Below are positions 16,255-34,725 of a stretch of DNA of 64,000 bases, piece after piece. The position numbers were made by a program, and so were the translations under genes. Below the pieces are notes generated by a model, which searched no databases, had not been told where the DNA came from, and saw nothing but the letters and a program-made list of their open reading frames with translations. Origin of the DNA: Pseudomonas azotoformans (lineage in GTDB: Bacteria > Pseudomonadota > Gammaproteobacteria > Pseudomonadales > Pseudomonadaceae); the NCBI RefSeq assembly GCF_001579805.1, contig NZ_CP014546.1, positions 6,014,001 through 6,078,000 of the forward strand, given 5' to 3'. Position 1 is the first letter of the stretch. The number at the start of each line of letters is the position of its first letter.

Positions 16255-16571
16255 GCCTCTTGAAGCGAACGCTGGGTGTGACGTGACAAGGTCACGAACA
16301 ACTCGGGCACCTGATAGATCAGCGCCTGGCGGATCAGCGGATGGTCCTGGCAAAACGCCTTGAGATTGAAGCCGACCTCACGGCCGAGGTTGGCGTTGAT
16401 CAGTACCAGGTCAAATGCACGGTCGCCACAGCCGAGCAGCGTCGTCAGCTCGTCCAGGCTCGACACCGGCGCAATGGCGTAATAGCCCTGGTGGTTGAAG
16501 TCACGCTCCAGGCGCAGGCGCCGTTCGTGCTGGGTGTCGGCAATCATCACGCGCAAGCCCTTGTTGATCAT
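16251..16571 (-). CDS. Degenerate stand-alone receiver-like protein
   Basis: A 106-residue protein with receiver-domain layout. The acidic pocket is reduced (VMIADTQHERR in place of VVDDH), and the position of the phospho-accepting Asp is Asn (FDLVLINANLG, residue 59). It therefore cannot be phosphorylated in the normal way. The ATG at 16571 overlaps the stop of the RR-EAL gene (ATGA), so the two are translationally coupled. I infer a binding or titrating role in the fimbrial signalling system. The receiver assignment is by alignment of the strand with DLVVLD of neighbouring regulators, and homology is moderately certain. Confidence 0.6.
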   Translation of the reverse strand: MINKGLRVMIADTQHERRLRLERDFNHQGYYAIAPVSSLDELTTLLGCGDRAFDLVLINANLGREVGFNLKAFCQDHPLIRQALIYQVPELFVTLSRHTQRSLQEA

Positions 16572-17776: not shown

Positions 17777-17808
17777 GAGGGCGGGACTCGTCTGTAGAGA
17801 AGTGCCCC

Positions 17809-17871
17809 ATTGTTTCGCGACTTGGCCTAAGTGGACCTAGGAAACGTCTCTACGCTTGTAGGAAATTTCCC
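17809..17871 (-). promoter_or_regulatory. Tandem BvgA-like operator and promoter, RR-EAL gene
   Basis: Primary site TAGGAAATTTCCC at 17859-17871, second copy TAGGAAACGTC at 17838, 21 bp apart. The -10-like AACAAT (coding strand) lies at 17809-17814, 23 bp beyond the second copy and about 32 bp before the start codon. The geometry matches five other promoters in the locus. Confidence 0.7.
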
Positions 17872-17886
17872 AAGAACGCCCACACC

Positions 17887-20800
17887 TCACGCCAGGTAAT
17901 CCTCCAACTGCTCCGCCAAGTGCTCCATCGACTGTTGCAAGGTATCCACGGCCGCCGTCAGCGCCGCCGCGTCCAGCCCTTGGGCCGCCGACTCAAGGGC
18001 CTCGCACGCGTGGATCAAGCCGGCGGCGCTGATAATCCGCGCACCGCCCTTGACCCGGTGGGCCAGGTCAGCGAGCCCTTGCACATCGTGCTGGGTAAAC
18101 AAGCGCATGAGCTTGGCCATGTCGCCGTCATTGCTCACGGCCAGGTCGCCCAGCAGGCGCTTGACCGACGCCTGGTCGCCACGGGCCAGTTGCTCCAGGC
18201 TGCTGATGTCGATGTCTTCCAACGGTGGCATGTCGGCCCGCGCGTCGGGTTGAACCACCGCCTGGGGTTTGACTTGCGCCAAGCGTGCACCCAGGTCCTT
18301 GAGGCTAATGGGCTTGAACAGGCAGTCGTCCATGCCCGCCTCGACGCAGCGCGCCTTCTCTTCGGCCAAGGCATTGGCGGTAAACCCCAGCACCAGACCG
18401 CGATGCAAGCCGCGCGCGGCCTCTTCGGCGCGAATCGCCCGCGCCAACGCGTAGCCATTCATGATCGGCATATTGCAGTCGGTGATGACCACATCGAACA
18501 GCTCGTTGCGCCAAGCCCGCAGGCCGTGGGCGCCGTCCTCGGCATCGGTGACCCGGTGGCCCAGGTAACCCAGTTGCTCCGACAACAACAGCCGGTTCGC
18601 CGGATAGTCGTCGATCACCAGGATATTCAGGGCCTCGCCAGCCACCTGGGGCTCAACCTCGGCCAAGGGTGCACAAGGTTCCAGGATCGGTGCATCCAAA
18701 CGCACTTCAATCTGCGTGCCCTGCCCCAACGTGCTGTCCAGGGTCAGGGTACCGCCCATCATTTCGCACAGGGTGCGGCTGATCACCAGCCCCAGCCCCG
18801 AGCCGCCACGGGGCGCCTGGCCATGGTTGTCCGCCTGGGTAAACGGGCTGAACAGGCGTTGCTGGTCTTGCGCGGAGATACCGCGCCCACTGTCCTCCAC
18901 GCGCAAGCACAGGGCCAGGCGTTCCTGCCCCGGCAAGACGTGCGCCCTGGCGACCAGGCGCACCTGGCCGGCATCGGTAAACTTGATCGCATTGCTCAGC
19001 AGGTTGGACAACACCTGCTTGAAGCGCTGCGGGTCGATCAGCACCTCGGTACTGATCTGTGCCTCCAGGTCCAGCTGCAAGCGCAGTTGTTTCTGCCGGG
19101 CGAGACCATCGAACACCCGCGCCACCGACTCGATCAGTTCACGCAGGTTGGCCCGCTCCGGCGCCAGCGACAGGCGCCCGGATTCAATACGCGCGATATC
19201 GAGAATATCGCCAATCAGGTCGAGCAGGCCCCGCGCCGCGCCGGAGGCGACTTCGATGGCCGAACGGTCGAGCACCCCCTTGTCGGCTTTTTTCATCGCC
19301 AGTTCGAGCATGCCGATCACCGCATTCATCGGCGTGCGGATCTCATGGCTCATGGTCGCCAGGAACGTGGTCTTCGCCCGGTTGGCGGCGTCGGCATCAT
19401 CCTTGGCGACTTGGAGTTCCTGCACCAAGCGCTGCCGCTCGCTGAGTTCTTCGCTCAGCGCCCGCTCGGCTTCGCGCCGCTTGCCGATCAACCAGCGCAA
19501 ATAGCCGATCCAGCCCAAGGCCAGTGCCAGCAGCACCGCCGCAATGGCAAAGCCCTGGAGAATCGCGCTGCGATTGCGCAGCCAATAGCTGTCGTCGATG
19601 ACCACCTCGTTGCGCCAGCGGTTGGTCAGCTCGTCCATTTCCTCGGGGGTGATGCTGAGCAGTGCCTTATCGAGGATCGAATACAACTCCAGCGCGCCGC
19701 GATTGGTCGCCAGGGCGATCCGCGCCGGCATCGTCCCAACGGTGCTGGTGACCTGCAAGCGATTGCGGTACTGCCGGGAGATCATATAGCGCGCACTGAT
19801 CAAGGAATTGATCGCGCCGTCCACTTCGCCCTTCGCCACCATGGCCATGGCGTCGACGGCGTTCTGTGCGGGCACCAATTGCACCTGGGGGAACTGCTCC
19901 ACCAGGTATTCGCGCATCACATTGCCCTGGACCAGGGCCAGGCGCTTGCCGGCCATCTGGTCGAGGGTCTGGGGCTTGTCATCGCCGATGGGCGTGACCA
20001 GCACAAACGGGTTGGTCAGGTACGGCCGCGTGAAGCGCAAGGCATTTTCACGCTCGGCACTGGGGGTAAACGCGGCCAGCATATCGGCCTTGCCGCTGGT
20101 GACCTGGTCGATCAGATCCTGCACCGACTCGGCCCGCTGCAGATCGAATTGCAGGCCGGTGCGCAGGCTGACCTTGGCCAGCACATCGGCGCTGATGCCA
20201 CGAAAGTTGCCGTCTTCATCGACAAACGTCAGCGGCAGGAAGTTTTCATTGATCGCCACCGTCACCCGTGGATGCTGCTCCATCCAGCGTTGTTCACTGT
20301 TGCTGAAGTGCAACGTCTGCCGACCCGGCATACTCGCACCGCCGGCACTCCAGCGACGCAGGATGGTCATGCGCTCCGCCGCCGGGATCGTCGTGAGCGC
20401 CGTATTGAGGATGCGCAGCAAGCGCTCGTTGCTGCGGCTGACGGCAAAGGCGAACGGCTGCACTTCCATCTGCGAGAAGTCGCTGAGCTGGACGTTGTTC
20501 AGGTAGTTCTTGTTGATCAGGTAGTTGGAACTGATGGAGTCGCCCAGGTAGACATCGGCCTGGCCGAACGCAACTGCGCCAATCGCACTCAAGGTCGACG
20601 GAAACAGTTGCACGGTCGCCTCGGGGTAAAACGCCTTGACCGCGTCCGGCGGCAGGTAGTGATAGAGCATCGCCACGTGCTTGCCCGCCAGGTTCGGCGG
20701 CAGGTTCTGGCTGTCACCAATCCGCGTGACCAGTACTGGCTGGTCATTGGCATACTCCTGGGACAGGGCCAACTCGGGGTCAGCGGCTTCAAATCCGTTG

Positions 20801-21177
20801 GCCGTGCCGAGCATGTCGATCTCGCCGCTTTTCAGCGCGGCAATCACCTCGGCGCGCGAGCTGTAGCGGCGCACATCGACCTGCATGTGCAGCAACTGCG
20901 CGATCAGTTGTGCATAGTCCGCGGTGATGCCCTGGTAATCGTCACCATTGCCGGTCATGCCGAAGGGCGAGTAGTCCGGGGCCGAAGCGCCTAACACCAG
21001 CGTGCGTTTGTGGCGCAGCCAGTTCCAGTCGGGCTCGTCGAGGCCGACCGAGTAATCTTCCACCGTCGAACGCCCGAGCAGATGCAACGACTCGCTAGAG
21101 GCCAATACGGGCGGTGCCGCCGCCAGCGCCCCCAGCAACAGCAGGCCGGCCACGTAGGTTCCGAGAAATCGCTTCAT
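17887..21177 (-). CDS. BvgS/RocS-type hybrid sensor histidine kinase
   Basis: A 1096-residue phosphorelay kinase. Order: signal peptide (MKRFLGTYVAGLLLLGALAA), two periplasmic solute-binding-like (Venus flytrap) domains (about 50-290 and 295-535), one transmembrane helix (about 545-570), a coiled linker, HisKA with FLATMSHEIRTPMNAV, an ATPase domain (NLLSNAIKF, DSGRGIS, GGSGLGL), a receiver with VVITDCNMP and a C-terminal Hpt with LAHRVKGGAR. All phosphotransfer residues are present. The double flytrap sensor is the hallmark of BvgS, EvgS and P. aeruginosa RocS1. It follows the RR1 gene directly (stop and start adjacent), forming a regulator-sensor operon. The ligand is unknown. Confidence 0.93.
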   Translation of the reverse strand: MKRFLGTYVAGLLLLGALAAAPPVLASSESLHLLGRSTVEDYSVGLDEPDWNWLRHKRTLVLGASAPDYSPFGMTGNGDDYQGITADYAQLIAQLLHMQVDVRRYSSRAEVIAALKSGEIDMLGTANGFEAADPELALSQEYANDQPVLVTRIGDSQNLPPNLAGKHVAMLYHYLPPDAVKAFYPEATVQLFPSTLSAIGAVAFGQADVYLGDSISSNYLINKNYLNNVQLSDFSQMEVQPFAFAVSRSNERLLRILNTALTTIPAAERMTILRRWSAGGASMPGRQTLHFSNSEQRWMEQHPRVTVAINENFLPLTFVDEDGNFRGISADVLAKVSLRTGLQFDLQRAESVQDLIDQVTSGKADMLAAFTPSAERENALRFTRPYLTNPFVLVTPIGDDKPQTLDQMAGKRLALVQGNVMREYLVEQFPQVQLVPAQNAVDAMAMVAKGEVDGAINSLISARYMISRQYRNRLQVTSTVGTMPARIALATNRGALELYSILDKALLSITPEEMDELTNRWRNEVVIDDSYWLRNRSAILQGFAIAAVLLALALGWIGYLRWLIGKRREAERALSEELSERQRLVQELQVAKDDADAANRAKTTFLATMSHEIRTPMNAVIGMLELAMKKADKGVLDRSAIEVASGAARGLLDLIGDILDIARIESGRLSLAPERANLRELIESVARVFDGLARQKQLRLQLDLEAQISTEVLIDPQRFKQVLSNLLSNAIKFTDAGQVRLVARAHVLPGQERLALCLRVEDSGRGISAQDQQRLFSPFTQADNHGQAPRGGSGLGLVISRTLCEMMGGTLTLDSTLGQGTQIEVRLDAPILEPCAPLAEVEPQVAGEALNILVIDDYPANRLLLSEQLGYLGHRVTDAEDGAHGLRAWRNELFDVVITDCNMPIMNGYALARAIRAEEAARGLHRGLVLGFTANALAEEKARCVEAGMDDCLFKPISLKDLGARLAQVKPQAVVQPDARADMPPLEDIDISSLEQLARGDQASVKRLLGDLAVSNDGDMAKLMRLFTQHDVQGLADLAHRVKGGARIISAAGLIHACEALESAAQGLDAAALTAAVDTLQQSMEHLAEQLEDYLA

Positions 21178-21804
21178 CTAGATCAGGCTGTTGCGCTTGG
21201 CGAAATCGGCCAGGTACACCACGGACTTCACCTTGAGTTTTTCGATCAGTCGCGTCTTGTAGGTGCTGACGGTCTTGTTGCTGAGCAGCATCGAATCACC
21301 GATTTCCTTGTTGCTCAGGCCCAGGGCCAGTTGCTGCAAAATCGTCAGCTCGCGATCGGACAAGCTCTGGATCAACTCCAGGTCCGTCGCATCGGCATCA
21401 CTGCGCCGCACCGAACTGGTGGCCAGGTTGGGAAAGAAGGTATAGCCGCCCATCACCGCTTTGATCGCCTTGACCAACTCGTCCAGGCCATTGGTCTTGG
21501 AGATGAATCCAGCCGCACCGGCCTTCATGCAGCGCATCGAATAGAACAGCGCCGACTGGGAGGTCAACACCAGCACTTTGGTCGGCACGCCCAGGCCGCT
21601 GATCCGCGAAATCACTTCAAGCCCGTCCAACTTGGGCATGGTGATGTCCAGCACCACCAGATCCGGCGCATGCTCGCGCACCAGTTGCACCGCGTCGGCA
21701 CCGTTGTCCGCCTCGGCCACCACTTCAAAGTGTTCCTGGTTGAGCAACATCTTGACGGAAGAGCGAATGAACGGGTGATCGTCCACAACTATCGCTTTAT
21801 GCAT
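21178..21804 (-). CDS. LuxR/NarL-type response regulator RR1 (BvgA/RocA-like)
   Basis: A 208-residue regulator: receiver (1-120) with the intact phospho-Asp at residue 53 (DLVVLDITMPKLDG) and a C-terminal LuxR helix-turn-helix (SDRELTILQQLALGLSNKEIG, then NKTVSTYKTRLIEKL). The ATG at 21804 is preferred because it gives the family start MHKAIVVDDHPFIRSS and follows AGAGGT. The sensor kinase gene begins directly after its stop, so this is the cognate regulator. It most likely binds the TAGGAAATTTCC elements across the locus, including the perfect palindrome upstream of itself. Confidence 0.92.
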   Translation of the reverse strand: MHKAIVVDDHPFIRSSVKMLLNQEHFEVVAEADNGADAVQLVREHAPDLVVLDITMPKLDGLEVISRISGLGVPTKVLVLTSQSALFYSMRCMKAGAAGFISKTNGLDELVKAIKAVMGGYTFFPNLATSSVRRSDADATDLELIQSLSDRELTILQQLALGLSNKEIGDSMLLSNKTVSTYKTRLIEKLKVKSVVYLADFAKRNSLI

Positions 21805-21912
21805 ACAGACCTCTGTAAGACAGCCGACGTACGAGCGTGCCAACGCCATGGACGGCATAAGGCCTCATCCATGAAATGCACCCGCCGAAAATACATGAGC
21901 ATCGCTCAATTG

Positions 21913-21926
21913 TAGGAAATTTCCTA
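21913..21926 (-). promoter_or_regulatory. Perfect TAGGAAATTTCCTA palindrome upstream of RR1-sensor operon
   Basis: The only fully symmetric copy of the element in the locus, 109 bp before the RR1 start codon. A second copy at 21-22 bp is weak at best, and no -10 hexamer stands at the position used by the other promoters. It could be an autoregulatory site with a different geometry. Confidence 0.65.
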
Positions 21927-21954
21927 AGAATTACCGCGCCGTGCAGGGAAGTTT

Positions 21955-22776
21955 TCACGGCGCAATGACCGCCTTGTCCAGCCACTGCAACAAGTCCCTT
22001 CCGGTCATGGGCCGCGCCAGGTGATAACCCTGGCCAACTTCGCAGCCGAGTTCCAGCAAACCCGCGCACACCCGAGGGCTGCTGACGCCTTCGATGACCA
22101 GGGTCATATCCAGCGAACGCACCAGCGCCCGTGTACCGGCCACCATCGAGCGGTTACGCAAACGGTCCAGGCGCTGCACGAACTTGCCATGCAGCTTGAT
22201 CTGGTTGAACGGCAGTTGGCACAGCGACTTGAGCGAGGAAAACCCCAGGCCGAAATCGTCCAGTGACAAACCGCAACCCAGCAGTTTGAGGCGCAGCAGG
22301 TTCTCTCGGGTCTGTGGCGCACACACCAGTACGCCGTTTTCCGCCAGTTCGAAGGTGAGTGTCGAACCCTTGAAGCGATGACGTTCCAGGGCCTGCCGGA
22401 TGTGCTCGACCAACGCCGGGCTGGCCAGTTGCGAGGCATGCAGGTTGAACGCCAGCGTCAGGCTCACGCCCTGGTGACGCAGAATCCCCAGCAACCCCAA
22501 ACCCTGCTCCAGCAATTGCGTGAACATCTGGTCGATCAAATCATAGGCCAGCACCGCCCCCAGGAAATCGGCCGGCAGTAATACACCGCGCGCCGGATGC
22601 TCCCAGCGCACCAGGGCTTCCACTCCGGTGACTGCCTTGCTGTGCAAGTGCAGTTGCGGTTGGAACCAGGCGCGAAACTCACCCAGGGCCAGGCCACGGC
22701 GCACCTCGTCTTCGGTGGGTAGAAGGCCACGCTCCCCCGCCTGTTTTTCCAGCACCTGTCCTGGTGGAAAGGTCAT
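21955..22776 (-). CDS. Stand-alone EAL-domain protein
   Basis: A 273-residue protein made almost wholly of an EAL domain. Several catalytic positions are kept: EALVRWEHP, NLHASQL, FELAEN, DDFGLGFSS, the Lys in IKLHGKF and the Gln in GQGYHLARPM. The Asp after the Lys is His, and the second Glu of EGVE is Ser (VIEGVSS), so activity may be reduced or the domain may only bind c-di-GMP. It is transcribed from its own element-bearing promoter between the fimbrial genes and RR1. I infer local c-di-GMP control of fimbriae, opposite or in addition to the RR-EAL protein. Confidence 0.8.
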   Translation of the reverse strand: MTFPPGQVLEKQAGERGLLPTEDEVRRGLALGEFRAWFQPQLHLHSKAVTGVEALVRWEHPARGVLLPADFLGAVLAYDLIDQMFTQLLEQGLGLLGILRHQGVSLTLAFNLHASQLASPALVEHIRQALERHRFKGSTLTFELAENGVLVCAPQTRENLLRLKLLGCGLSLDDFGLGFSSLKSLCQLPFNQIKLHGKFVQRLDRLRNRSMVAGTRALVRSLDMTLVIEGVSSPRVCAGLLELGCEVGQGYHLARPMTGRDLLQWLDKAVIAP

Positions 22777-22812
22777 CGTCTACCCCATCACTCAACCGAA
22801 CCGAGAGCCGAC

Positions 22813-22875
22813 ATAGTGGCGAGCGAGGTGGACACAGGTCGTAGCTTCTATCCGACCAGGCTGTAGGAAATTTCC
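22813..22875 (-). promoter_or_regulatory. Tandem BvgA-like operator and promoter, EAL gene
   Basis: Primary TAGGAAATTTCC at 22864-22875, second copy TAGCTTCTATCC at 22842-22853 (22 bp apart). The -10-like CACTAT on the coding strand is at 22813-22818, 23 bp beyond the second copy and 36 bp before the start codon. Confidence 0.7.
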
Positions 22876-22886
22876 GACACAAATCC

Positions 22887-23903
22887 TCAGTAGTAAATCA
22901 CCTGCACCACCATCACCGCTTCAAACGGCCCGACCTGCGGGTCGCCCAACGCCACGACGGAGGCGCTGAAGGGCACGTCGATATGGCTGACACTGGCCGC
23001 GAACACCGCCAGGGGGAACGGCTCGTTGATCGGCACCCGATTGTTGCGGGCATCGCGGACCTGGATGCCGAACTGGCTGTCCGCCTTCGGCAACACGTTG
23101 TAAAGGCCCTGCTGATTGGCCGTCACCAGCGTGGCGCCGATATTCAGGGCGGTACTGCACTTTTTTTCCAGCGCCAGGCTGAACGGCTGGGTAGGGTTGG
23201 GCGGCGAGAAACCGGTGGTGGTTTTCTGGATCACGCCGAAATCCACAATGCCCGGCTCCGGGGTCACGGTGACGTCCACCGTGCACGCGGTGCCGACGAT
23301 GTTCTGCAAACCACTGAGCTGGAAACGGAAGTTGCCATTCGGGTTACTCGGCCCTCCGTTGAGGCCATACAGGCCGTCAAACTGGAACACGTCATAGGTG
23401 TCCTGGGACGGCCGTTGCAGCGGTAGCAACCCGCGTTTGCGGATCACCACCTGGAAGGCAATGCTTGGGTTGGCCAGGGAACACGGCAGCATCTCGGCAT
23501 TGTTGGTCGCGCCAGGGCAGCCACGGGAAATGAATCCAGTGTTCACGCCCTGGGTCGGGTTGGAACTCCAGTCGCCATCCCAAGCGGTGACCTGCCGATA
23601 GACCAGGCCGAACTCAATGCCCCAGGCCGTAGCGTTGAGGCCGGCAGGGTTGCCATAGAAGTAAATCGGGTCGTCCTCGTCAAAATGCTGATCGTGCAAT
23701 TTGAAGCACTTGGCCGGCACCACGTGGGTCTTCGAGCGCCAGATGATCGTGCCGTCTGGCACGGTGTCTGGCACCGACACCGGGCCGATGTACTCGCTCA
23801 GGTAATTACCGTCGTTCTCCGACTTGCACAACAGCGCCCATGACGCCTGGGAAAACACCAGCAACAACGCTGCCAGGCACAGCCTCGGGCCCCAACCGGT
23901 CAT
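22887..23903 (-). CDS. Fimbrial tip/adhesin-like subunit, pilus B
   Basis: A 338-residue secreted protein with a signal peptide (MTGWGPRLCLAALLLVFSQASWA) and a start at 23903 that overlaps the chaperone stop (ATGA). The N-terminal half is a probable receptor-binding domain. The C-terminal half has the pilin pattern: TACTVDVTVTPEPGIVDFGVI, a second Cys in ALEKKCST and a C-terminal beta-strand ending VMVVQVIYY for donor-strand exchange. As the last gene of a pilin-usher-chaperone operon and twice pilin size, it fits a tip adhesin. The bound receptor cannot be told. Confidence 0.78.
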   Translation of the reverse strand: MTGWGPRLCLAALLLVFSQASWALLCKSENDGNYLSEYIGPVSVPDTVPDGTIIWRSKTHVVPAKCFKLHDQHFDEDDPIYFYGNPAGLNATAWGIEFGLVYRQVTAWDGDWSSNPTQGVNTGFISRGCPGATNNAEMLPCSLANPSIAFQVVIRKRGLLPLQRPSQDTYDVFQFDGLYGLNGGPSNPNGNFRFQLSGLQNIVGTACTVDVTVTPEPGIVDFGVIQKTTTGFSPPNPTQPFSLALEKKCSTALNIGATLVTANQQGLYNVLPKADSQFGIQVRDARNNRVPINEPFPLAVFAASVSHIDVPFSASVVALGDPQVGPFEAVMVVQVIYY

Positions 23904-24625
23904 GGCTTCACGGCCTGGCACGCGGTGGCGGTGCAGGTGAACGGCGTGTCGGTCTGCCCGCCGAAATCATTCATGTTCGACACCCGCAACTCGCTGAACC
24001 CCAGGCTGGCCAACGGCAAACGTGCGCTGGCATGGGGTGCGATCATCACCGTCTCCACCGGCATCTTGGTTTTCTGCGGGCCCACCAACAGGCCGACCAC
24101 AGTGATGTGGAACGGCGTCGGGTTGCTCACTTGCAATTGCTTGGCCGCCGGGTCGATCACCAGGCTCAGCCCCTCGGCCATGTCGGCGCCGCGCTCGCGC
24201 TTCACCGAGGCTGGGCGATAGAACAATTTGATCTTCGACTGCAAGGCAATCTGCATCGCATTGACCGCCTCGCTCTTGGGCGGGATCTCACGGATGTTGA
24301 GGTAGAACACCGATTCACGGTCCGTGGGCAACGTGGTCTGGGGCAATTTCACAATACGCAGCACGCTGCTCTCATTCGGTTCGATACGTTGCAGCGGCGG
24401 CAGCACCATGAACGGCGTGGTGATTTTCTTGCCCTGCTCGTCCTCGATCCAGGACTGCACCACAAACGGCAGTTGCAGGTTCTTGTTGCTGACCGTGACA
24501 CTCACCGAAGTGGCGCTTTCTTCGAAAATCACGCGGGTGCGATCCGGCACCACGGCCGCGTTGGCCAACAACGGCACACACAGCACGGCCAGGCGCGCGA
24601 TACGGTTGAACATCAATCGAGACAT
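23900..24625 (-). CDS. Periplasmic fimbrial chaperone, pilus B
   Basis: A 241-residue PapD-type chaperone. The ATG at 24625 (GGAG 9 bp upstream) is preferred over an upstream TTG. Signal peptide ends near LLANA; the mature protein starts AVVPDRTRVIFEESATSVSV, and the N-domain holds WIEDEQGKK, PFMVLPPLQRIEPNESSVLRI (the G1 donor strand) and the conserved DRESVFYLNIREIPP. It donates a strand to pilus B subunits in the periplasm and delivers them to the usher. Coupled to the downstream adhesin gene. Confidence 0.92.
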   Translation of the reverse strand: MSRLMFNRIARLAVLCVPLLANAAVVPDRTRVIFEESATSVSVTVSNKNLQLPFVVQSWIEDEQGKKITTPFMVLPPLQRIEPNESSVLRIVKLPQTTLPTDRESVFYLNIREIPPKSEAVNAMQIALQSKIKLFYRPASVKRERGADMAEGLSLVIDPAAKQLQVSNPTPFHITVVGLLVGPQKTKMPVETVMIAPHASARLPLASLGFSELRVSNMNDFGGQTDTPFTCTATACQAVKP

Positions 24626-24658
24626 CAGGGAACACTCCAAGTCAACGGATTAGGGGGA

Positions 24659-25417
24659 TCACAAACACCGCACGGGTGTCGGGATATTGGTCACGACGTC
24701 TTCCGGCGGCAGCACCGCCAACGCGCAGAGATGGCTGTCGTCCCAGCGTGCCACCAGCTCGGCCCCGGCCTTGGCGCCAAGCAAATACGTGATGCCCGCC
24801 TCCCCGACAATGCCGACTTCCTTGTGGGTGTGTTTGTCCTGCACCGAGGCCCCGAACGGCACCACCTGGCCGTTGGCCTGGGTCAGTTCGACATAGGCGT
24901 TGTAGCCCTGGGCGGCAGCAAAGTTGACGTAGCCGATGGCGCCCTCAGTCAACGCCAGGCGCTGGATCGGGTTGGACACTTCGGTCTTGAGCGGCAGTTT
25001 TTCGATGTTCACCCGCGCCTCATAGGCCTGGAACGCCGGCAGCCCATCCATCACCGTGTAGCCGTCGCGGTTGGAGCGCGCCTGGCCGGTGAAGGCCACG
25101 TCCGGCACGCCGTCGGTCGACACCAGCAACCGCGTATCGCCATTAGAGCCATTGCCATGGGCCGTGACGCCGTAGCGGGTCACCACCAACGAGCTGTCGA
25201 ACTCGCCGGTCAGCGAGCGGTACGTGCTGCCATCGGTGGTGGCCGAGGCATTGGCGCGGTAGGTGGACGCACGCTTGCCGACATAGGCATTCACGTATTT
25301 GTTGTCGCCCATGCCGCCGTACACCTGGTAGTTCATGCCTTCGCCATCGTCGTGGCTGTAGCCGACACTGGTTGACGTCGCGCCGGGGCTGGCGCGCTGC
25401 ACCGTCGCGGACATCAT
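24659..25417 (-). pseudogene. Usher of pilus B, C-terminal fragment (frameshifted)
   Basis: These 252 codons encode the last barrel strands and the two C-terminal plug-like domains of an outer-membrane usher (conserved TDGVPDVAFTGQ, RVNIEKLPLKTEV, PFGASVQD, GEAGITYLLG and a terminal Cys-rich end). The frame opens with ATGATG that overlaps the stop of the upstream fragment. On its own it has no signal peptide and could not insert in the membrane. With one more G in the upstream G5 run it would join the N-terminal fragment in frame. It might still be translated by re-initiation but would not be exported. Confidence 0.85.
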
Positions 25418-27099: not shown

Positions 27100-27135
27100 G
27101 GAAATAACCCTTTTATCAACCAGGCAACAGGCAAG

Positions 27136-27160
27136 AAAAAAGGGGCTCGCGCCCCTTTTT
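27136..27160 (-). terminator. Intergenic terminator between pilin B and usher B
   Basis: GGGGC (27142-27146) and GCCCC (27151-27155) form a GC stem flanked by A-rich and T-rich runs on both sides, 23 bp past the pilin stop. It likely lets only part of the transcripts read into usher, chaperone and adhesin, so pilin is made in excess. Confidence 0.8.
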
Positions 27161-27182
27161 CATCACAACCGATAAAGCACTA

Positions 27183-27716
27183 TCAGTTGTAAGCCACGGT
27201 GAAGTTGGCAACGCTGTCCGCTTCACCGGTGGTCACGGTGGCGGCGGTGGCTTCGTACATGGCGGCGAAGGTCACGGTGTTGTTGCCGTTCTGCAATACC
27301 ACCGGTGCAACTTGTTCCTTACCGTTGTCGAGCATCTCGCCGGCGCTGGCCTGCAGGCGGATACCGACGTTCTGGGCCAGGCCAGTGGTGGCGAACAGGC
27401 CCGGTACCGCCGGGTCTTGCACGCCGCTGAAGGTGAAGCGCGCGTTCTGCTGGGTGGAGGTATCGCACTCGGTCAGGATGATGTCGAACTTGGTCGGCGT
27501 GGAGCGATCACCGACGGCGCGGAACTGGTTCGACGGCACCTGGCCCAGGGACACGGTCTGGTCCAGGGAATTGGCGTCGATGCCGCAGGCGCCCGAAACG
27601 ATCTCACCGATGAAACGCACGGTGCCTGGGTTACCGCTCGCCGGCGTGGCCGCGTTGGCGAAGGAAGCAAGGCCCATGGCAACAGCAGCGGCAGTAACAG
27701 CGACAATCTTTTTCAT
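27183..27716 (-). CDS. Major fimbrial subunit, pilus B
   Basis: A 177-residue type 1-like pilin. The ATG at 27716 gives a proper signal peptide (MKKIVAVTAAAVAMGLASFA, cleavage near ANA); the longer frame is upstream leader. The mature protein begins ATPASGNPGTVRFIGEIVSG and has the paired cysteines ACGIDANS and TECDTSTQ that close the pilin loop. The C-terminal donor-strand motif ends NFTVAYN. First gene of the pilus B operon, with its own operator-promoter 200 bp upstream. Confidence 0.9.
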   Translation of the reverse strand: MKKIVAVTAAAVAMGLASFANAATPASGNPGTVRFIGEIVSGACGIDANSLDQTVSLGQVPSNQFRAVGDRSTPTKFDIILTECDTSTQQNARFTFSGVQDPAVPGLFATTGLAQNVGIRLQASAGEMLDNGKEQVAPVVLQNGNNTVTFAAMYEATAATVTTGEADSVANFTVAYN

Positions 27717-27918
27717 GAGTTCAACTCTAGGGTTAATTATGGTTAGGCCCAGAAACCCGACTTCCCAAACAGACACTACCGACACTTATCTAAATCCCCA
27801 TCCCGAAGAACAGCGCGCATCCGTTAAAACACGTTAAGTGTTTTGGCTGTTCGCTCAGTTAAAGCGTCGCTAACAACCTGGCTATTGAAGAAGTTCAAAC
27901 ATCTCTATGGCGGGAGGA

Positions 27919-27982
27919 ATCATGAGCGTCGGCCTTAGTTGGAAATGTAAGTTCCTTCTCCGCAAACTGTAGGAATTTTCCC
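27919..27982 (-). promoter_or_regulatory. Tandem BvgA-like operator and promoter, pilin B
   Basis: Primary TAGGAATTTTCCC at 27970-27982, second copy TAAGTTCCTTCTC at 27948-27960 (22 bp apart). The -10-like CATGAT on the coding strand is at 27919-27924, 23 bp beyond. This implies an unusually long leader of about 195 bases before the pilin start. Confidence 0.65.
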
Positions 27983-28016
27983 GGCGAATATTCCTTCAGA
28001 TAAAGCCTCTTCCACT

Positions 28017-30518
28017 TCAAGGTGCCTTGCAGATCGCCTCCATCACCCGATAGCCATCCACTGGTGCGGTCTGGCTGATATCCAGCTCGACCGTGCAACG
28101 CTGCGCAGCTTTCTCGCCCCACTTCATGCTGTAGACCTTGCCCTCGTCGACGGCGATCAGCACCTGCCCGGCCTGCCCGACCACGCCTGCGCTCACGCCC
28201 TTGTCGTCGAGCACCGTGGTGCCGAACGGCGGCAGCGAACCGTCCTGCAAGCGCACACTGAGCACGACTTTTTCCGAGCGGCGCGCGGCGAACGCCGCCT
28301 TGACCACTGCGCCACGGCGCGGCACCACGTTGGTCACGCCGTCGTCGATGTCGACGCTGGTGTCCAGCTCGCCCGTGTCCAGGGCCACGCGGTTCTTGCG
28401 ATACGGCGTCACGTAGGGCACCAGCGCATAGCCCTTCTGGTTGGTGAGGGTGCCGGGAGCATTGAGCACGCCGACATTGGGCGTGTCCTTGATTTCCACC
28501 AGGGCCACGGTTTCGCTGAGCGCCTGACCAAACTCCACGCCATCGCCATGGGCCAGCACCGAACCCGATGCACTCACCGAGGCCTGCCGGTAGCCATTGC
28601 CCACGCTCACACCTGCGCCCAACTGGGCATACGGCGCACGGTAACCGACCAGTGCCGAGCCATTGTTGCCGGCCAGGTCCGAACGGTTGGCATTGACGTT
28701 GTACGTCAGGTTGCCGTCGTTGCCGCTGAGGCCGGCACGCTGGTCCAGGCTGCCGTCATTGTTGCGGGTGACCGAGTAGGTGGCGGTGCTGCGGGTCTGG
28801 CCGATGGGCATCGACACGGTGAACACCACCTGGTTGTTCTCGCCGTAGTTGTCGGTGAGGGTCTTGCTGGCATACACGCCGTAGGTCACGCCTTTGTGTT
28901 GGGTGTTGAAGCCCAGTTGCATCTGTTTGTCCTGGCGCGAAGACCCCCAATAATGCTGCTGGCTCATGTTGAGGTAGAACGAGCCACGGCTGCCCAGGGC
29001 CTGATTGACACTGGCCTCGACCTTGCTGCGCTTGGACAGGCCGAAATAGTCGTTGGGGTCCTGCAGGCGCACGGCCTCCTCGAAGTCACGGTAGCCCTCG
29101 GTGGAATAGCGATACCCGGCAAAACGCACCGAAGTGCCCGTCTCGAAGGCCTTGCCATAACGCACGCTCACGCTCTGGCCTTTTTGCTGGCCGCCCTGCG
29201 CCTGGGGCACATCCGCCTGGGCCTGGGTGACATCCACCGACACCGCCCCCAGGCTGCCCAGGCTCTTGCCGACGCCCACCACCCCGGCGCGGTAGAAATC
29301 CGCGCCCAGCAGGCCGCCATACAGCGTCAGGTCAAAAGGCAGGCCGTAGGCCAACGATGCCTGGGCAAATGCGGGGCGCTGGCCACCGTCCACAGCGTTG
29401 TATTCACCCAGGGTCATGCTGTAGCGCCAGGTTTTTTCCCGCAGCATATTGCCCAAGGTGGCGTAAGGCTGGGTGAAGCGGCGCTCGCGGCCGTCGGCCT
29501 CGGTGATGATGATTTCCAGGTCGCCGCTGCCCGAGGCGGCGTTGAGGTCATCGATCTCGAACGCGCCGGGGGCCACGTAGGTGGTATAGAGGGAAAAGCC
29601 GTTCTGGCGCACTTCAACCTTGGCCTGGCTTTCGGCAATGCCACGGATGATCGGCGCGTAACCCTGCATCGAGTCCGGCAACATGCCCATGTCCGACGCC
29701 ACCTGCACGCCACGGAACGGGATGCTGTCGAACACATCCCCCGGCGTGAAACTCTCGCCCAGGGTCAGGGTGCCCTTGAGTGCGGTGAGGTCCCGTTGCG
29801 CGTAGGTGTTGCTGCGCTGCCAATCCTGCTGGCCCTCCTCATCCTGGCGGAATGAAGAGCTGCTGCGAAAACGCCAGTCGCCCAGATTGAAACCGCCATT
29901 GGCATACAGGTTGTACTGGCTGCCGCTGCCGCGCCTGTCAGACTGGGTCTGCGCTGCGGAAAACTGATAGTTGAGCATCGCCGCGTTAATGCCACGGTCC
30001 CAGTCTTGAGGCGCGACATAACCGGCCGCATCTCGGCGCAGGGCGATCTGCGGCACGCTGATATCGAGGGCCAGGTGGTTGGCGTCGAAACTCACCGACG
30101 CGCCCTCGACCATGGCCGCCAGGTCAATGCATGCCGGCAACGCGTCACCCGGCACCTGGAACGCCTCCAGCTTTACACCCAGTTCCTTGAGAAACGCCTC
30201 GGACAGACAAACCCGTACTTCACCGCTGGCTTCATCCTTGGCGAAGGTCATGTCGCGGCGGTCGAAAAAACTCTGGTTCAGGCGAATCACCACCGGGTAG
30301 GTGCCAGGACCAATGCTGCCGCTGTTGGCGATGGCGTCCAGGTCCAGGTTCGGCCCGGCGCTGGTGCCGCCAAAGGACTGCATGAAACTGGCATCAAACT
30401 TCGCCGGCTCTTCGGCAAACGCCACGCCGCCCATCAACGCGGCCAGCACGGCGGCGGACAAGCGCAAAGGCGTGAAGGGCACGGTCAGGCAGTCAAGGTT
30501 CAAGGCATAGGTTCGCAT
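28017..30518 (-). CDS. Outer-membrane fimbrial usher, pilus A
   Basis: Intact usher of 833 residues. The ATG at 30518 gives MRTYALNLDCLTVPF and a signal segment that ends near GGVAFA. The mature N-domain starts AEEPAKFDASFMQSFGG. The barrel contains the plug (GVQVASDMGMLPDSMQGYAPII), and the C-terminal domains include PFGTTVLDDKGVSAGVVGQAG. The chaperone-subunit complexes of pilus A pass through it. It is 75 bp after the chaperone gene. The gene ends 94 bp before the -10 of the pilus B promoter, so pilus A and B units lie head to tail. Confidence 0.95.
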   Translation of the reverse strand: MRTYALNLDCLTVPFTPLRLSAAVLAALMGGVAFAEEPAKFDASFMQSFGGTSAGPNLDLDAIANSGSIGPGTYPVVIRLNQSFFDRRDMTFAKDEASGEVRVCLSEAFLKELGVKLEAFQVPGDALPACIDLAAMVEGASVSFDANHLALDISVPQIALRRDAAGYVAPQDWDRGINAAMLNYQFSAAQTQSDRRGSGSQYNLYANGGFNLGDWRFRSSSSFRQDEEGQQDWQRSNTYAQRDLTALKGTLTLGESFTPGDVFDSIPFRGVQVASDMGMLPDSMQGYAPIIRGIAESQAKVEVRQNGFSLYTTYVAPGAFEIDDLNAASGSGDLEIIITEADGRERRFTQPYATLGNMLREKTWRYSMTLGEYNAVDGGQRPAFAQASLAYGLPFDLTLYGGLLGADFYRAGVVGVGKSLGSLGAVSVDVTQAQADVPQAQGGQQKGQSVSVRYGKAFETGTSVRFAGYRYSTEGYRDFEEAVRLQDPNDYFGLSKRSKVEASVNQALGSRGSFYLNMSQQHYWGSSRQDKQMQLGFNTQHKGVTYGVYASKTLTDNYGENNQVVFTVSMPIGQTRSTATYSVTRNNDGSLDQRAGLSGNDGNLTYNVNANRSDLAGNNGSALVGYRAPYAQLGAGVSVGNGYRQASVSASGSVLAHGDGVEFGQALSETVALVEIKDTPNVGVLNAPGTLTNQKGYALVPYVTPYRKNRVALDTGELDTSVDIDDGVTNVVPRRGAVVKAAFAARRSEKVVLSVRLQDGSLPPFGTTVLDDKGVSAGVVGQAGQVLIAVDEGKVYSMKWGEKAAQRCTVELDISQTAPVDGYRVMEAICKAP

Positions 30519-30593
30519 GGCAGCACTCAATACGAGGCCATCACGCTGCGGCGGCAACGTGTGGTCAGGTTCGCAAGGGAATGGACGACAGCG

Positions 30594-31337
30594 TCAGGGG
30601 GCGCTGGTGATGGCGACTTTGCTCGGCTCGCTGTAGCCGCCGAAATCATTGATGGCGGAGAACATCACCTCGCCGGTGCGGGCGGTGAACCCCGGCAGTG
30701 CGTAGCGCTGGCGGCTCATGGGGGCGACCATTTTCGGCTCGTCCACCTCGACGGTCTGCCCGCCGCCCATGGCCTTCACGCCAATAAACGACACGTGGAA
30801 GGCCGACGGGTTGTTCACCTCCAACAGGGTCTTGCCCTGTTCCTGCACCAGGCTCCAGCGCAGTTGCGGCAGTGCATCCAGCGTATTGCCCTGGAGGCCG
30901 GCGGGGCGGTAGAACAGTTTGATGCGGGTGCGCATGGCGATCTTCAGGGTGTTCTCGTCGGCCTTGGCGGCCACCGGAATTTCCTGGGCATTGAAATAGA
31001 ACACCGACTCCCGGTCCTCGGGCAGCGCGCCCGGCACTTTCTGGATGCGCACCATCTGCTCTTTGTGCGGGTCCAGGCGAAACAGCGGTGGCGTGGCCAC
31101 GAAGGGGGTCGGCGTGGTGTTGTCATCCGCCTCGGTGTTGACCCAGGTCTGCACTGCATAGGGCTGTGCGGTGGTGTTGCCAACGGTGATAGAGGCGTCG
31201 CGCTTGTTGCCGTCGAACACGATGCGCGTGCCGCCGAGCATCACACCGGCCTGGCTGATGCCGCTGAGCAGCATCAGGGCAAGTAGCGCCGTGCTTTTGA
31301 AAGGCGTGGTTTTGAAAGGGGTCACAAAACGTTTCAT
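30594..31337 (-). CDS. Periplasmic fimbrial chaperone, pilus A
   Basis: A 247-residue PapD-type chaperone. The ATG at 31337 follows a strong GAGGAGG and gives MKRFVTPFKTTPFKSTALLA, a signal peptide ending at SQA. The mature start GVMLGGTRIVFDGNKRDASI, the donor strand PLFRLDPHKEQMVRIQKV and the conserved EDRESVFYFNAQEIP are diagnostic. It serves the pilus A pilin and adhesin. It lies between pilin and usher in the usual order. Confidence 0.94.
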   Translation of the reverse strand: MKRFVTPFKTTPFKSTALLALMLLSGISQAGVMLGGTRIVFDGNKRDASITVGNTTAQPYAVQTWVNTEADDNTTPTPFVATPPLFRLDPHKEQMVRIQKVPGALPEDRESVFYFNAQEIPVAAKADENTLKIAMRTRIKLFYRPAGLQGNTLDALPQLRWSLVQEQGKTLLEVNNPSAFHVSFIGVKAMGGGQTVEVDEPKMVAPMSRQRYALPGFTARTGEVMFSAINDFGGYSEPSKVAITSAP

Positions 31338-31391
31338 CTCGATCCTCCTCTTGGCGCCCCAACCCAAATGGGCCGGGGCGTTGCACAGGGC

Positions 31392-31940
31392 TTACTGGTA
31401 GTCGACGGTGAACGCCGCCTTGGCATTGGCCGGGCCCGCCGTGGCCGCGCCGGTAGCGATGTAGTTGGCGGTGAAGCGCAGCGGCTGGGTGAGGTCCAGG
31501 TACGGCGAGGACTCCAGGCCCACTTGCACGTCCTTGCCGGTGGCATCCTTGATCTGCACGGCGACGTTGGTGGCCACGCCGGCTTCCGGCGACAGGCCGA
31601 TCCACTGGCCGCTGGCACCGGCGTTGCCGCTCAGGGACAGGAACTTCACCACGGCTTTCTTGCCGGTCACGCTGCAGCCTGGGGCGGTGGTGTCGATGGT
31701 CAGGGTGAACGCGCCACCGCCTGCCACTTGGCCGGCCGACGCCAGGGACGTCACGGGCACGCTGCCCAGGCCCACATCCCCGGCGCCGGCCGAACCGTTG
31801 AGGTCCTCGACTACCACCGGGCAGGTGTTGTCGGTGACGCTGCCGATGAAGTTGATTTCGCCGTCGGCCGCCAGTGCCGCCTGCGAAGTACCTGCCAGAA
31901 CCAGGGCGAGGGTCAAACCTTTGAGAGCAAACTTTTTCAT
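31392..31940 (-). CDS. Major fimbrial subunit, pilus A
   Basis: A 182-residue type 1-like pilin with signal peptide MKKFALKGLTLALVLAGTSQ, cleaved near ALA. The mature protein begins ADGEINFIGSVTDNTCPVVV; the pilin Cys pair is NTCPV and APGCSV. It ends FTVDYQ, the donor-strand tail. Highly expressed pilins typically open the operon, as here. Its promoter carries two good copies of the regulatory element. A GC-rich hairpin (31352-31382) lies between it and the chaperone gene and may reduce read-through. Confidence 0.92.
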   Translation of the reverse strand: MKKFALKGLTLALVLAGTSQAALAADGEINFIGSVTDNTCPVVVEDLNGSAGAGDVGLGSVPVTSLASAGQVAGGGAFTLTIDTTAPGCSVTGKKAVVKFLSLSGNAGASGQWIGLSPEAGVATNVAVQIKDATGKDVQVGLESSPYLDLTQPLRFTANYIATGAATAGPANAKAAFTVDYQ

Positions 31941-32044
31941 GATCACATCCACAGTTATGAAGGAGTGTCTGGTGGCCGAATGAAGGCCTTCAGACTCGGC
32001 GACGTGGCGGCCCAGGTAAGGGCCAGCGCGTTTCGTCTGGGTTC

Positions 32045-32107
32045 ATTATCGAAAGATGGGCAGTACGGCTATGTAGGAAACGTCGCCTCACTTGTAGGAA
32101 AATTCCC
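32045..32107 (-). promoter_or_regulatory. Tandem BvgA-like operator and promoter, pilin A
   Basis: Primary TAGGAAAATTCCC at 32095-32107 and a strong second copy TAGGAAACGTC at 32074 (21 bp apart). The -10 GATAAT on the coding strand is at 32045-32050, 23 bp beyond the second copy and 104 bp before the start codon. This is the clearest example in the locus. Confidence 0.75.
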
Positions 32108-32132
32108 ACAAAAAAGTTCCGGATTTTCACCC

Positions 32133-32173
32133 AAAAAAAACCACGCCACAGGCTCGATGAACCGGTGGCGTGG
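32133..32173 (-). terminator. Terminator of the pilus A adhesin gene
   Basis: Read leftward, CCACGCCAC (32165-32173 strand complement) pairs with GTGGCGTGG (32141-32149 complement) and is followed by eight T (32133-32140). It lies 21 bp past the adhesin stop and before the pilin A promoter, so the adhesin gene is a separate transcription unit. Confidence 0.85.
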
Positions 32174-32194
32174 TGGGTATTGCGCTGGGAAAGC

Positions 32195-33259
32195 TCAGCG
32201 ATAGGTCACGGAAAAGCTCGCGTAGCCATTCGCTGAACCCGGCGTGGGCGTTGGCCCGTCGGCAGTCTGGATATACCGCGCCTTGAGCGGCACCGTGGTG
32301 GTGCCATTGACGATCTGCGTGAGCCGCACCGGCTGGCCCAGGTTCATCGGCGTGTTGTCGTTGCGCAGCACTTGGATGGCCACGCCTTGGGCCGTGGAAT
32401 CGCTCGACAAACTCAAGATGCCGTTGGCCGCGTCGAGGATGTTCGAGGTCTTGTTGCCATCGATCTGGATATTGGCGTAGTTGCCATTGAAATAGCCGTT
32501 GGCGTTGCTCGGATAGTTACTGCCGGCGATGCAGGAGTTGAGCGTGATCGCGAACGGCTGGGCCGGCGTGGTGGAGTTTTTACCGTTGAACACGCGTTTT
32601 TCCCAGGTGCCCATGGGCACCGTGATCTGGTCACCCGGCGCCGTCGGCATGGAGCAGCCGGCCACGGTCACGGTGGCGGTGAACGTCAGGTCGAAGATAT
32701 GACCACGGTCCGAATCGCCCTTGGCCACCAGTTGATTAATAGTGTGGGTGCCGGGGGCAATGTCGCCGGTCTTGATCAATGCATAGCGCATCAGCGCGCC
32801 GCTCATGCCGCTGAGGGCGTAGGAAATATTCAGGTTGAGCTCAAACGGGACAAACCGGCTCGGGTTGTCCGCCTGCCCCTGCCACGGGGTGGCAAAACCG
32901 GTCATGTAGATCGCCACGCCAATGCCGGGCACATTGGTCTGCAACAGCGAACTGGCTGGCACCCGCACCACATCCACCGGGATATTCGTGGCCACCGGGC
33001 CGATCAGCGTGGTGGCGTAACGCGCGACCAGGCCGCACACCAGGCGGTCATTGAACGGCACCGTGCGTATCGGCGCGTTGTTGTTGAGGGTGGTGCCGAT
33101 GGGCACGTCACGCGGTGCGAACACCGTACCGGCCGCCAGCGTAAGTTGCTTGGGGGTGCCGTTGCCAGAGTCCCAAGTACAGGCCGCCATGGCCGGCGAC
33201 GCCGCCAGCGCCAGGGCCGATACCGCGAAATACTGTGCGAGGGTTGACTTGATGTTCAT
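32195..33259 (-). CDS. Fimbrial tip/adhesin-like subunit, pilus A
   Basis: A 354-residue exported protein: signal peptide MNIKSTLAQYFAVSALALAA ending at AMA, an N-terminal domain that probably binds the receptor (Cys residues at ACTWDSG and RLVCGL), then a C-terminal pilin domain with VAGCSMPTAPGD, NSCIAGS and the donor strand ending ASFSVTYR. The two-domain layout and size fit a tip adhesin. Unusually it comes first in the locus with its own promoter and terminator, so its amount is set apart from pilin A. Confidence 0.82.
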   Translation of the reverse strand: MNIKSTLAQYFAVSALALAASPAMAACTWDSGNGTPKQLTLAAGTVFAPRDVPIGTTLNNNAPIRTVPFNDRLVCGLVARYATTLIGPVATNIPVDVVRVPASSLLQTNVPGIGVAIYMTGFATPWQGQADNPSRFVPFELNLNISYALSGMSGALMRYALIKTGDIAPGTHTINQLVAKGDSDRGHIFDLTFTATVTVAGCSMPTAPGDQITVPMGTWEKRVFNGKNSTTPAQPFAITLNSCIAGSNYPSNANGYFNGNYANIQIDGNKTSNILDAANGILSLSSDSTAQGVAIQVLRNDNTPMNLGQPVRLTQIVNGTTTVPLKARYIQTADGPTPTPGSANGYASFSVTYR

Positions 33260-33342
33260 GTGTGAAGCCCTGATGAAAGCGACTGCCTGCCAGGGGGGTC
33301 GCCTGTTGATCGAGGCCCGGCCCTCAAGCCGGATGAGCCACG

Positions 33343-33406
33343 ATTATCGGCACTGGACATCACCTAACCCGTAGCTTCCTTCCCACCAAGCTGTAGGAAA
33401 TTTCCC
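33343..33406 (-). promoter_or_regulatory. Tandem BvgA-like operator and promoter, adhesin A
   Basis: Primary TAGGAAATTTCCC at 33394-33406, second copy TAGCTTCCTTCCC at 33372 (22 bp apart). The -10 GATAAT on the coding strand is at 33343-33348, 23 bp beyond the second copy and 83 bp before the ATG. Confidence 0.75.
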
Positions 33407-33416
33407 GCGCACAACC

Positions 33417-34043
33417 TCACACCAAATCGTTACGCCGGGCGAATTCCGCCAGGTACACCACCGACTTGACGTTGAGTTTTTCGATCAGGCGGGTCTTGTA
33501 GGTGCTGACGGTCTTGTTGCTGATCCGCAGCGCTTCACCGATCTGCTTGTTGCTCAGACCCAGGGACAACTGCTGCAAGATGCTCAGCTCACGCTCGGAC
33601 AACCGCGCGATCAACTCGCCGTCCGTGCTTTGCACATCCACGCGCCGCACCGCGTGAGTGGCCAGGTCGGGGAAAAAGGTATAGCCGTCCATCAGCGTCT
33701 TCACGCCTTTGACCAGCTCATCCAACGCATCGCACTTGGACAAAAAGCCCGCCGCACCGGCCTTGCGGCAACGGGTGACGTAGCACTGCGCCGATTGCGC
33801 GGTCAGTACCAACACCTTGCACGGCGGAGCCAGGTGGGCCAGTTGGGCAATCACCTCCAGCCCATCCAGGTCGGGCAGCAGGATTTCCAGGATCACCAGG
33901 TCGGGCGCCCGCTCACTCGCCCATTGCAGCCCCTGTACACCGTTGCCGGCTTCCCACACGACGCCAAAGCCCAGTCCGGCCAGCAACGCTTTGACCGATG
34001 CCCGGATAAACGGGTGGTCATCCACCACTAACGCGCGATACAT
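33417..34043 (-). CDS. LuxR/NarL-type regulator RR2 with Glu at the phospho-Asp position
   Basis: A 208-residue paralogue of RR1 with the same layout and a near-identical DNA-binding end (GLSNKQIG, NKTVSTYKTRLIEKLNVKSVVYLAEFARRN). The ATG at 34043 follows AAAGGAGG; the 92 codons upstream in frame are promoter DNA. The strand that holds the phospho-Asp reads DLVILEILLPDLDG, so residue 53 is Glu where RR1 has Asp. Asp-to-Glu changes often mimic phosphorylation, so RR2 may be active without a kinase. It is transcribed from its own tandem-element promoter. Direct target overlap with RR1 is inferred from the shared recognition helix. Confidence 0.9.
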   Translation of the reverse strand: MYRALVVDDHPFIRASVKALLAGLGFGVVWEAGNGVQGLQWASERAPDLVILEILLPDLDGLEVIAQLAHLAPPCKVLVLTAQSAQCYVTRCRKAGAAGFLSKCDALDELVKGVKTLMDGYTFFPDLATHAVRRVDVQSTDGELIARLSERELSILQQLSLGLSNKQIGEALRISNKTVSTYKTRLIEKLNVKSVVYLAEFARRNDLV

Positions 34044-34103
34044 ACCGCCTCCTTTCCCCTGTGAGTGCCATCCGTTGCGGCTGAAGAACGCCGAAGGGCA
34101 TGG

Positions 34104-34167
34104 ATGATCAAGGGAAGGAACAACGGGATAGTTAGGTTTCATCCTTCTGATTCGTAGGATTTTTCCC
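34104..34167 (-). promoter_or_regulatory. Tandem BvgA-like operator and promoter, RR2 gene
   Basis: Primary TAGGATTTTTCCC at 34155-34167, second copy TAGGTTTCATCC at 34133 (22 bp apart). The -10-like GATCAT on the coding strand is at 34104-34109, 23 bp beyond and 60 bp before the start. It would place RR2 under autocontrol or RR1 control. Confidence 0.68.
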
Positions 34168-34176
34168 AGCAAACCC

Positions 34177-34686: not shown

Positions 34687-34725
34687 ATCACCCTCCCACA
34701 GCGTGCCCGTTGGCGATTCCACCTG

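Follow-up and report, generated by a model that had tools for sequence, protein, structure and literature searches.

How the promoters of a fimbrial gene cluster may be read by its own regulators is the question raised by a locus in a 64,000-nt stretch of the Pseudomonas azotoformans genome (6.86 Mb; the whole stretch is called the window below), where TAGGAAATTTCC-type palindromes precede seven minus-strand transcription units. Judged by its protein domains, the locus is of the Roc type, with a RocS/BvgS-like kinase, a RocR-like EAL protein, two BvgA/EvgA-family regulators (RR1 and RR2) and two chaperone-usher operons. The answer put forward here, at a probability of roughly 80%, is that the palindromes belong to the promoter code of a Roc-type regulon in which regulator dimers would be stacked up to the polymerase. 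What is observed directly is the sequences and how they are spaced, that they recur in related loci and are missing from unselected DNA, and the gene families; since the layout is kept by related bacteria, a real switch is probable, one that operates in the manner of a switch known from the whooping-cough bacterium.

The preliminary description had placed such elements upstream of seven units, and a pattern search of the window recovers every one at its position. With at most two mismatches to TAGGAAATTTCC allowed, 16 matches are found at 10 places in the window, whereas 100 shuffles average 2.1 and never exceed 7; the places 32820, 42514 and 61533 lie outside the seven claimed elements, and 42514 was rejected as a member of the code, having neither a second copy nor a -10. 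The consensus palindrome is TAGGAAATTTCCTA, and on the coding (minus) strand all seven run on into CCTAC. A second, usually weaker copy lies nearer the gene in six of the seven units, at a step of 21 bp (17859, 32095) or 22 bp (22864, 27970, 33394, 34155), roughly two turns of DNA, and a hexamer begins exactly 23 bp past this copy (in the same order AACAAT, GATAAT, CACTAT, CATGAT, GATAAT and GATCAT), in which positions 2 and 5 are always A and position 6 is always T. The steps, the hexamers and the exception at 21913, upstream of RR1, are as had been described or implied. The six tandem promoters are, in window positions:

RocR-like gene promoter (-): distal (primary) palindrome 17859..17872 TGGGAAATTTCCTA; proximal copy 17838..17851 AGAGACGTTTCCTA, 21 bp step; -10-like AACAAT 17809..17814, 23 bp past the proximal copy
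EAL gene promoter (-): distal 22864..22877 TCGGAAATTTCCTA; proximal 22842..22855 TCGGATAGAAGCTA, 22 bp step; -10-like CACTAT 22813..22818
Fimbrial subunit 2 promoter (-): distal 27970..27983 CGGGAAAATTCCTA; proximal 27948..27961 GGAGAAGGAACTTA, 22 bp step; -10-like CATGAT 27919..27924
Fimbrial subunit 1 promoter (-): distal 32095..32108 TGGGAATTTTCCTA; proximal 32074..32087 GGCGACGTTTCCTA, 21 bp step; -10-like GATAAT 32045..32050
Tip-adhesin-like gene promoter (-): distal 33394..33407 CGGGAAATTTCCTA; proximal 33372..33385 TGGGAAGGAAGCTA, 22 bp step; -10-like GATAAT 33343..33348
RR2 promoter (-): distal 34155..34168 TGGGAAAAATCCTA; proximal 34133..34146 AAGGATGAAACCTA, 22 bp step; -10-like GATCAT 34104..34109

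A consensus scan of 16500-35000 gave one ordinary sigma70-like promoter, on the opposite strand and inside a gene, which would fit activator dependence without proving it. By eye, a hairpin with a T run, absent from the list of that scan, is seen at 32133-32173 (-), separating the tip-adhesin-like gene from the subunit 1 promoter; it is a probable terminator and agrees with separate transcription units.

The available part of PMC7250471 describes BvgA promoters with 22-bp steps, a proximal dimer abutting the -35 region, head-to-head dimers, a strong distal inverted heptad and weaker proximal sites, and gives the primary BvgA site of Pfha as TAAGAAATTTCCTA, which differs from the consensus TAGGAAATTTCCTA in one base of 14. 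As with BvgA, a further copy at a 21/22-bp step toward the promoter is present in six of the seven window promoters and in related loci, and the proximal copy abuts the -35 position, as placed by the 23 bp to a -10-like hexamer that is itself assigned from sequence. Unlike BvgA, which occupies Pfha with three dimers and Pptx with six according to the same part of that source, two copies are found here, at which dimer binding is predicted; a 21 bp step occurs besides 22, and Roc-type regulators, coupled to EAL proteins, take the place of BvgA. The Pfha-like palindrome, the 22-bp step, the SNKTVSTYKTRLIEKL common to both regulators and the recurrence in roc loci support the earlier proposal of one BvgA-family regulon with dimers stacked to the polymerase, and what they point to appears to be a real Pseudomonas variant of the BvgA-type promoter architecture.

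The geometry was fixed from the window beforehand and then tried on related loci, which bears on whether degenerate palindromes and A..T hexamers had simply been chosen by eye. A near-palindrome with two mismatches is not rare, with 127 genome matches on both strands compared with 65 for the reversed pattern; chance is nevertheless contradicted by the register and spacing tests outside the window and by an empty background of 300 kb, and it is hardly credible as an explanation. In the register test, gene-strand matches to the plain consensus in the window and L001-L022 numbered 61, or 50 after dereplication and 43 without second copies (8 in the window, 35 outside). A -10-like hexamer stands at 44 or 45 past CCTA in 27 of the 35 outside sites, while mononucleotide shuffles gave a mean of 2.1 and a maximum of 9 (1000 shuffles) and any other single register between 24 and 65 was occupied in at most 4 of the 35. 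The eight misses are L001-20063, L004-19773, L009-14289, L012-16419, L013-8427, L021-8921 and two sites in L015. Among the 27, the site L002-9895 precedes RR1 itself, whose layout otherwise differs, and may be a chance match. A position weight matrix (PWM) was derived from 42 sites; as 7 of these belong to the window, its counts there are partly circular, and the register test uses the plain consensus instead. In a wider set, taken from roc-type loci in both orientations at a PWM score of at least 17 and without second copies, 166 rows were dereplicated to 121, of which 111 lie outside the window and 10 are the window or the identical DNA of L194. The -10 stands at 44 or 45 in 43 of these 111 rows; on a 115-row version including the L194 rows, 44 were observed, compared with a mean of 7.3 and a maximum of 16 in 300 dinucleotide shuffles.

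Whether two dimers are needed is a separate matter. If only the distal palindrome were bound, the second copy would either be a leftover or serve as a contact for polymerase further upstream, and duplicated promoter copies, without stacking, would account for the fixed -10. This would suit the second copies of the four 22-bp window cases (four of six), in which only 3-4 of 7 half-site bases are matched, so that within the window alone the copy is weak; its support comes from an alignment of 44 coded sites, of which 43 lie outside the window and the last is the window's own DNA in L194. In these 44 rows the second copy keeps GGA and TCCTAC and the -10 reads (C/G)AnaAT, while the sequence between them has drifted, with no conserved -35. 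Spacing was scored where the second half-site matched at least 3 of 7 bases and a single register applied, giving 41 rows outside the window, with one further row fitting both registers. Spacing and register agree in 40 of the 41 (21 with 44, n=11; 22 with 45, n=29), the exception being 21 with 45 (n=1); Fisher's test gives p of about 4e-9, with no correction for relatedness. The -10 thus shifts with the second copy and is locked to it, which makes binding of the distal palindrome alone unlikely.

The tandem code also recurs mostly before related genes. Among the 43 coded sites outside the window, 35 are followed within 700 bp by a homologue either of a gene in the window or of an autotransporter described below (12 RocR, 6 EAL, 5 autotransporter, 4 regulator, 3 subunit 2, 3 subunit 1 and 2 tip adhesin), and 8 do not. 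The spacing is 21 in 5/5 autotransporter promoters and 22 in 6/6 EAL and 3/3 subunit-2 promoters, and is mixed for RocR and subunit 1. A tentative extension, which we hold to be doubtful, is that 21 versus 22 bp forms a second layer of the code, in which a one-base shift of the distal dimer sets the paralogue (RR1 or RR2) or the phosphorylation level that fires the promoter, the proximal dimer replacing the -35 element at an unvarying 23 bp from the -10.

We infer binding, phosphorylation, activation, the role of the -10 and a braking role of the EAL proteins through cyclic di-GMP (c-di-GMP), as follows. The RocS/BvgS-like kinase would phosphorylate RR1 and/or RR2, and a dimer would nucleate on the strong distal palindrome, centred at about -64 (near -63.5 or -64.5). 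Cooperativity would bring a second dimer onto the weaker copy, which lies 21-22 bp closer to the gene, is centred at about -42.5 and abuts the -35 position; this dimer would recruit the sigma70 polymerase to the A..(A/T)T -10 at its fixed distance, without a -35 element. The centre positions assume that the hexamer is the -10, with its first base at -12; if so, one dimer would occupy a class II position and the other would be stacked upstream of it, the arrangement published for BvgA. The predicted targets are both fimbrial operons, the tip-adhesin-like gene, RR2, two EAL proteins and the off-locus autotransporter adhesin.

In the background test (PWM score of at least 16, both orientations, A2 and T6 at the register), the register was matched by 6 of 12 sites in the window, 47 of 101 in roc relatives (other registers average 8.7), 12 of 35 in distant roc loci (3.5), 6 of 38 in other Pseudomonas loci (5.0) and 3 of 37 at the other near-match places of the same genome (3.4). 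The set of other Pseudomonas loci is not neutral, as many of its 38 matches precede the regulator used for fetching or recur as one conserved sequence. No site scoring at least 16 occurs in the 300 kb of unselected stretches of this genome, nor in 65 kb covering four other usher regions (L123-L126, four of the six outside the window), and the code as a general property of fimbrial promoters is rejected on the latter ground. The code is thus not equally dense in shuffled or unrelated DNA. The enrichment proposed in the preliminary description is likewise borne out, within the scope covered, away from the locus, where the full code was found in 1 of 65 near-match stretches, these being the places outside the window among the 100 matches listed of 127.

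This one site, at 2427446, has a primary palindrome, a second half-site matching 7/7 and TAAATT at the register; L085 (1664887), promising by eye as a second case, was rejected, being absent among the matches passing the background test. The gene headed by site 2427446, which by its coordinate is about 3.6 Mb away from the locus, encodes an autotransporter of 684 residues that has pertactin and AIDA stretches. A homologue with 73% identity in P. fluorescens 28B5 (L001) lies inside the roc locus behind the same promoter, as is also the case in L004 and L005; in G451 (L188) and G480 (L191/L193) the distance to an RR1 relative is 4-8 kb, again with the same promoter. At E 1e-150 or better the autotransporter occurs in 6 of 298 genomes of the genus, five of which also carry an RR1 relative, which itself is found at E 1e-75 or better in 92 of the 298. 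In the 1.5 kb autotransporter flanks of the other three carriers (G310 and G209, more distant at 54% identity; G441, partial), no gene-facing code was found.

Several observations weigh against the stacked-dimer code, the nearest of which is the promoter of RR1, where the window departs from it:

21913..21926 (-): palindrome before RR1, TAGGAAATTTCCTA, without canonical second copy or -10
21888..21893 (-): TATTTT, possible -10 of RR1, 19 nt past the palindrome at 21913

A site or near-site, 19 nt and then TAnnTT are found upstream of RR1 in 11 of 13 aligned regions (the window, L001-L006, L008-L010 and L013), with no canonical second copy; the layout was not seen in L011 and L012. It looks like a distinct layout kept in relatives, and RR1 is probably autoregulated through this differently arranged single site. 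The code shared across seven regulatory regions, as claimed in the preliminary description, accordingly stands for six units and fails for the RR1 promoter. Among strong sites (PWM score of at least 24; roc-type loci, both orientations, two rows being window DNA), 17 of 53 miss the register, and at L117:1338 (+) and L118:17900 (-), beside roc kinase genes, the second copy seems by eye to lie 24 bp on, a possible spacing variant. Orthologous promoters are, moreover, not fully independent of each other.

Two more of these observations concern the reader of the sites. The stretch SNKTVSTYKTRLIEKL of RR1 and RR2 has close versions in EvgA and in the RocA1 of the P. aeruginosa group; EvgA (EvgS/EvgA of Escherichia coli) is the best solved relative of RR1 (144 bits), with a nearly identical recognition stretch, and the NCBIfam equivalog cut-offs are reached neither for EvgA (177.8 vs 251 bits) nor for FimZ (177.9 vs 271 bits). 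At another place (G000:C1:3819466) the genome encodes a third relative of RR1, with 64% identity, which is a candidate reader too, and another regulator common in Pseudomonas (L046, L079) has nearly the same recognition stretch, so that no single reader is assigned. A single TTCCTACA-type site is often found upstream of that other regulator in L023-L080, mostly by 90-1000 bp and without the tandem code. The sites could then be real while their main reader is a different member of the BvgA family, for instance the third relative, or they could act partly as repressor sites. The coded promoters recur in the same loci as RR1 or RR2 relatives, and a position adjoining -35 suits activation, though repression stays compatible; we consider this reading improbable, slightly more so than that of a lone bound palindrome.

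The remaining misfits come from the P. aeruginosa group, whose Roc system (RocS1/RocA1/RocR, RocA2, RocA3) is covered in the available part of PMC12051241. The locus resembles it in the kinase with two SBP_bac_3 stretches and Hpt and in the receiver-HTH and receiver-EAL partners; RR1 matches RocA1 of the group at 56%. That system is reported to control chaperone-usher fimbriae; the sites here precede both cup operons, whose control is predicted. Unlike that system, the locus carries two cup operons and two regulators in a single run, together with an EAL-only gene. In the genome G126, where RocR is found at 97% and another RocR-like protein at 49%, the figure given for RocR3 in that part of the source, the full code stands before rocR in the rocA1-rocR intergenic region. 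Among the roc/cup sites examined there, only the rocR promoter has the full register; the cupC-side site is a tandem that lacks a -10 at this register. Upstream of cupB1 the best candidate is weak, scoring 9, and lies about 227 bp before the probable start codon (RocA3 binding in PA14 is reported at 214 bp in the same part of PMC12051241). Given the misfits on the cupC and cupB sides, the code is only partly kept in G126. A coded site with TAGAAT at the register is also seen in G126 at L111:2678-2699 (-), before a LuxR-type response regulator followed by a kinase-like stretch. For RocA sites, no published description of a tandem geometry or -10 register was found in a search of mostly non-subscription literature, apparently without the 2021 DNA affinity purification sequencing (DAP-seq) paper, or in the available part of PMC12051241.

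The genes of the locus, whose named relatives are Pseudomonas species, are transcribed in the order RR2; tip adhesin; subunit 1-chaperone-usher; second chaperone-usher operon; EAL; RR1-kinase; receiver-EAL:

33417..34043 (-): RR2, receiver-GerE regulator, 65% identical to RR1; longer open reading frame 33417-34319, probable start 34043
32195..33259 (-): fimbrial tip-adhesin-like gene (Pfam, Fimbrial domain 193-353)
28017..31952 (-): first chaperone-usher operon, with subunit 1, chaperone and usher (Pfam)
22887..27785 (-): second chaperone-usher operon, with subunit 2, usher open in two frames, probable chaperone 23900-24640, and adhesin
21955..22776 (-): EAL-only protein (Pfam)
21178..21858 (-): RR1, receiver-GerE regulator (Pfam); start may lie at 21804
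17887..21177 (-): BvgS/RocS-like kinase (Pfam: two SBP_bac_3 stretches, HisKA, HATPase_c, receiver, Hpt)
16568..17776 (-): receiver-EAL protein, RocR-like (Pfam); best solved relative RocR 3sy8, 346 bits; 46% identity

The BvgS-like kinase and two BvgA-like regulators of the preliminary description are thus recognized from Pfam domains and the EvgA relationship, and are more precisely Roc-type. Pfam finds no PAS domain in the kinase at E 1e-3, though one is reported for RocS1. The reading frame 23900-24640, outside the Pfam run, is the probable chaperone of the second operon by its position and relatives. The second usher, 24659-27099 (-), is open in the frames 25414-27099 and 24659-25417, which overlap by 4 nt; it is a single frame in L001, and its two frames indicate a break by a frameshift or a sequence error.

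The presence of EAL genes among the targets suggests a likely c-di-GMP brake, as reported for RocR in the available part of PMC12051241, and the autotransporter suggests that a target gene can leave the locus, here by 3.6 Mb, and stay in the regulon by carrying the code. It has been reported from DAP-seq that RocA1-RocA3 have very similar motifs and overlapping targets, including the roc1 locus, cupB and cupC; why they act on different promoters in vivo is left open there (both from the available part of PMC12051241), and the code makes this question testable. If the code is readable (distal palindrome, 21/22, proximal copy, 23, -10, no -35), Roc targets would be predictable from sequence. The locus would then offer an apparent BvgA dimer-stacking promoter outside Bordetella, in a regulon joining fimbriae, an autotransporter adhesin and c-di-GMP breakdown.

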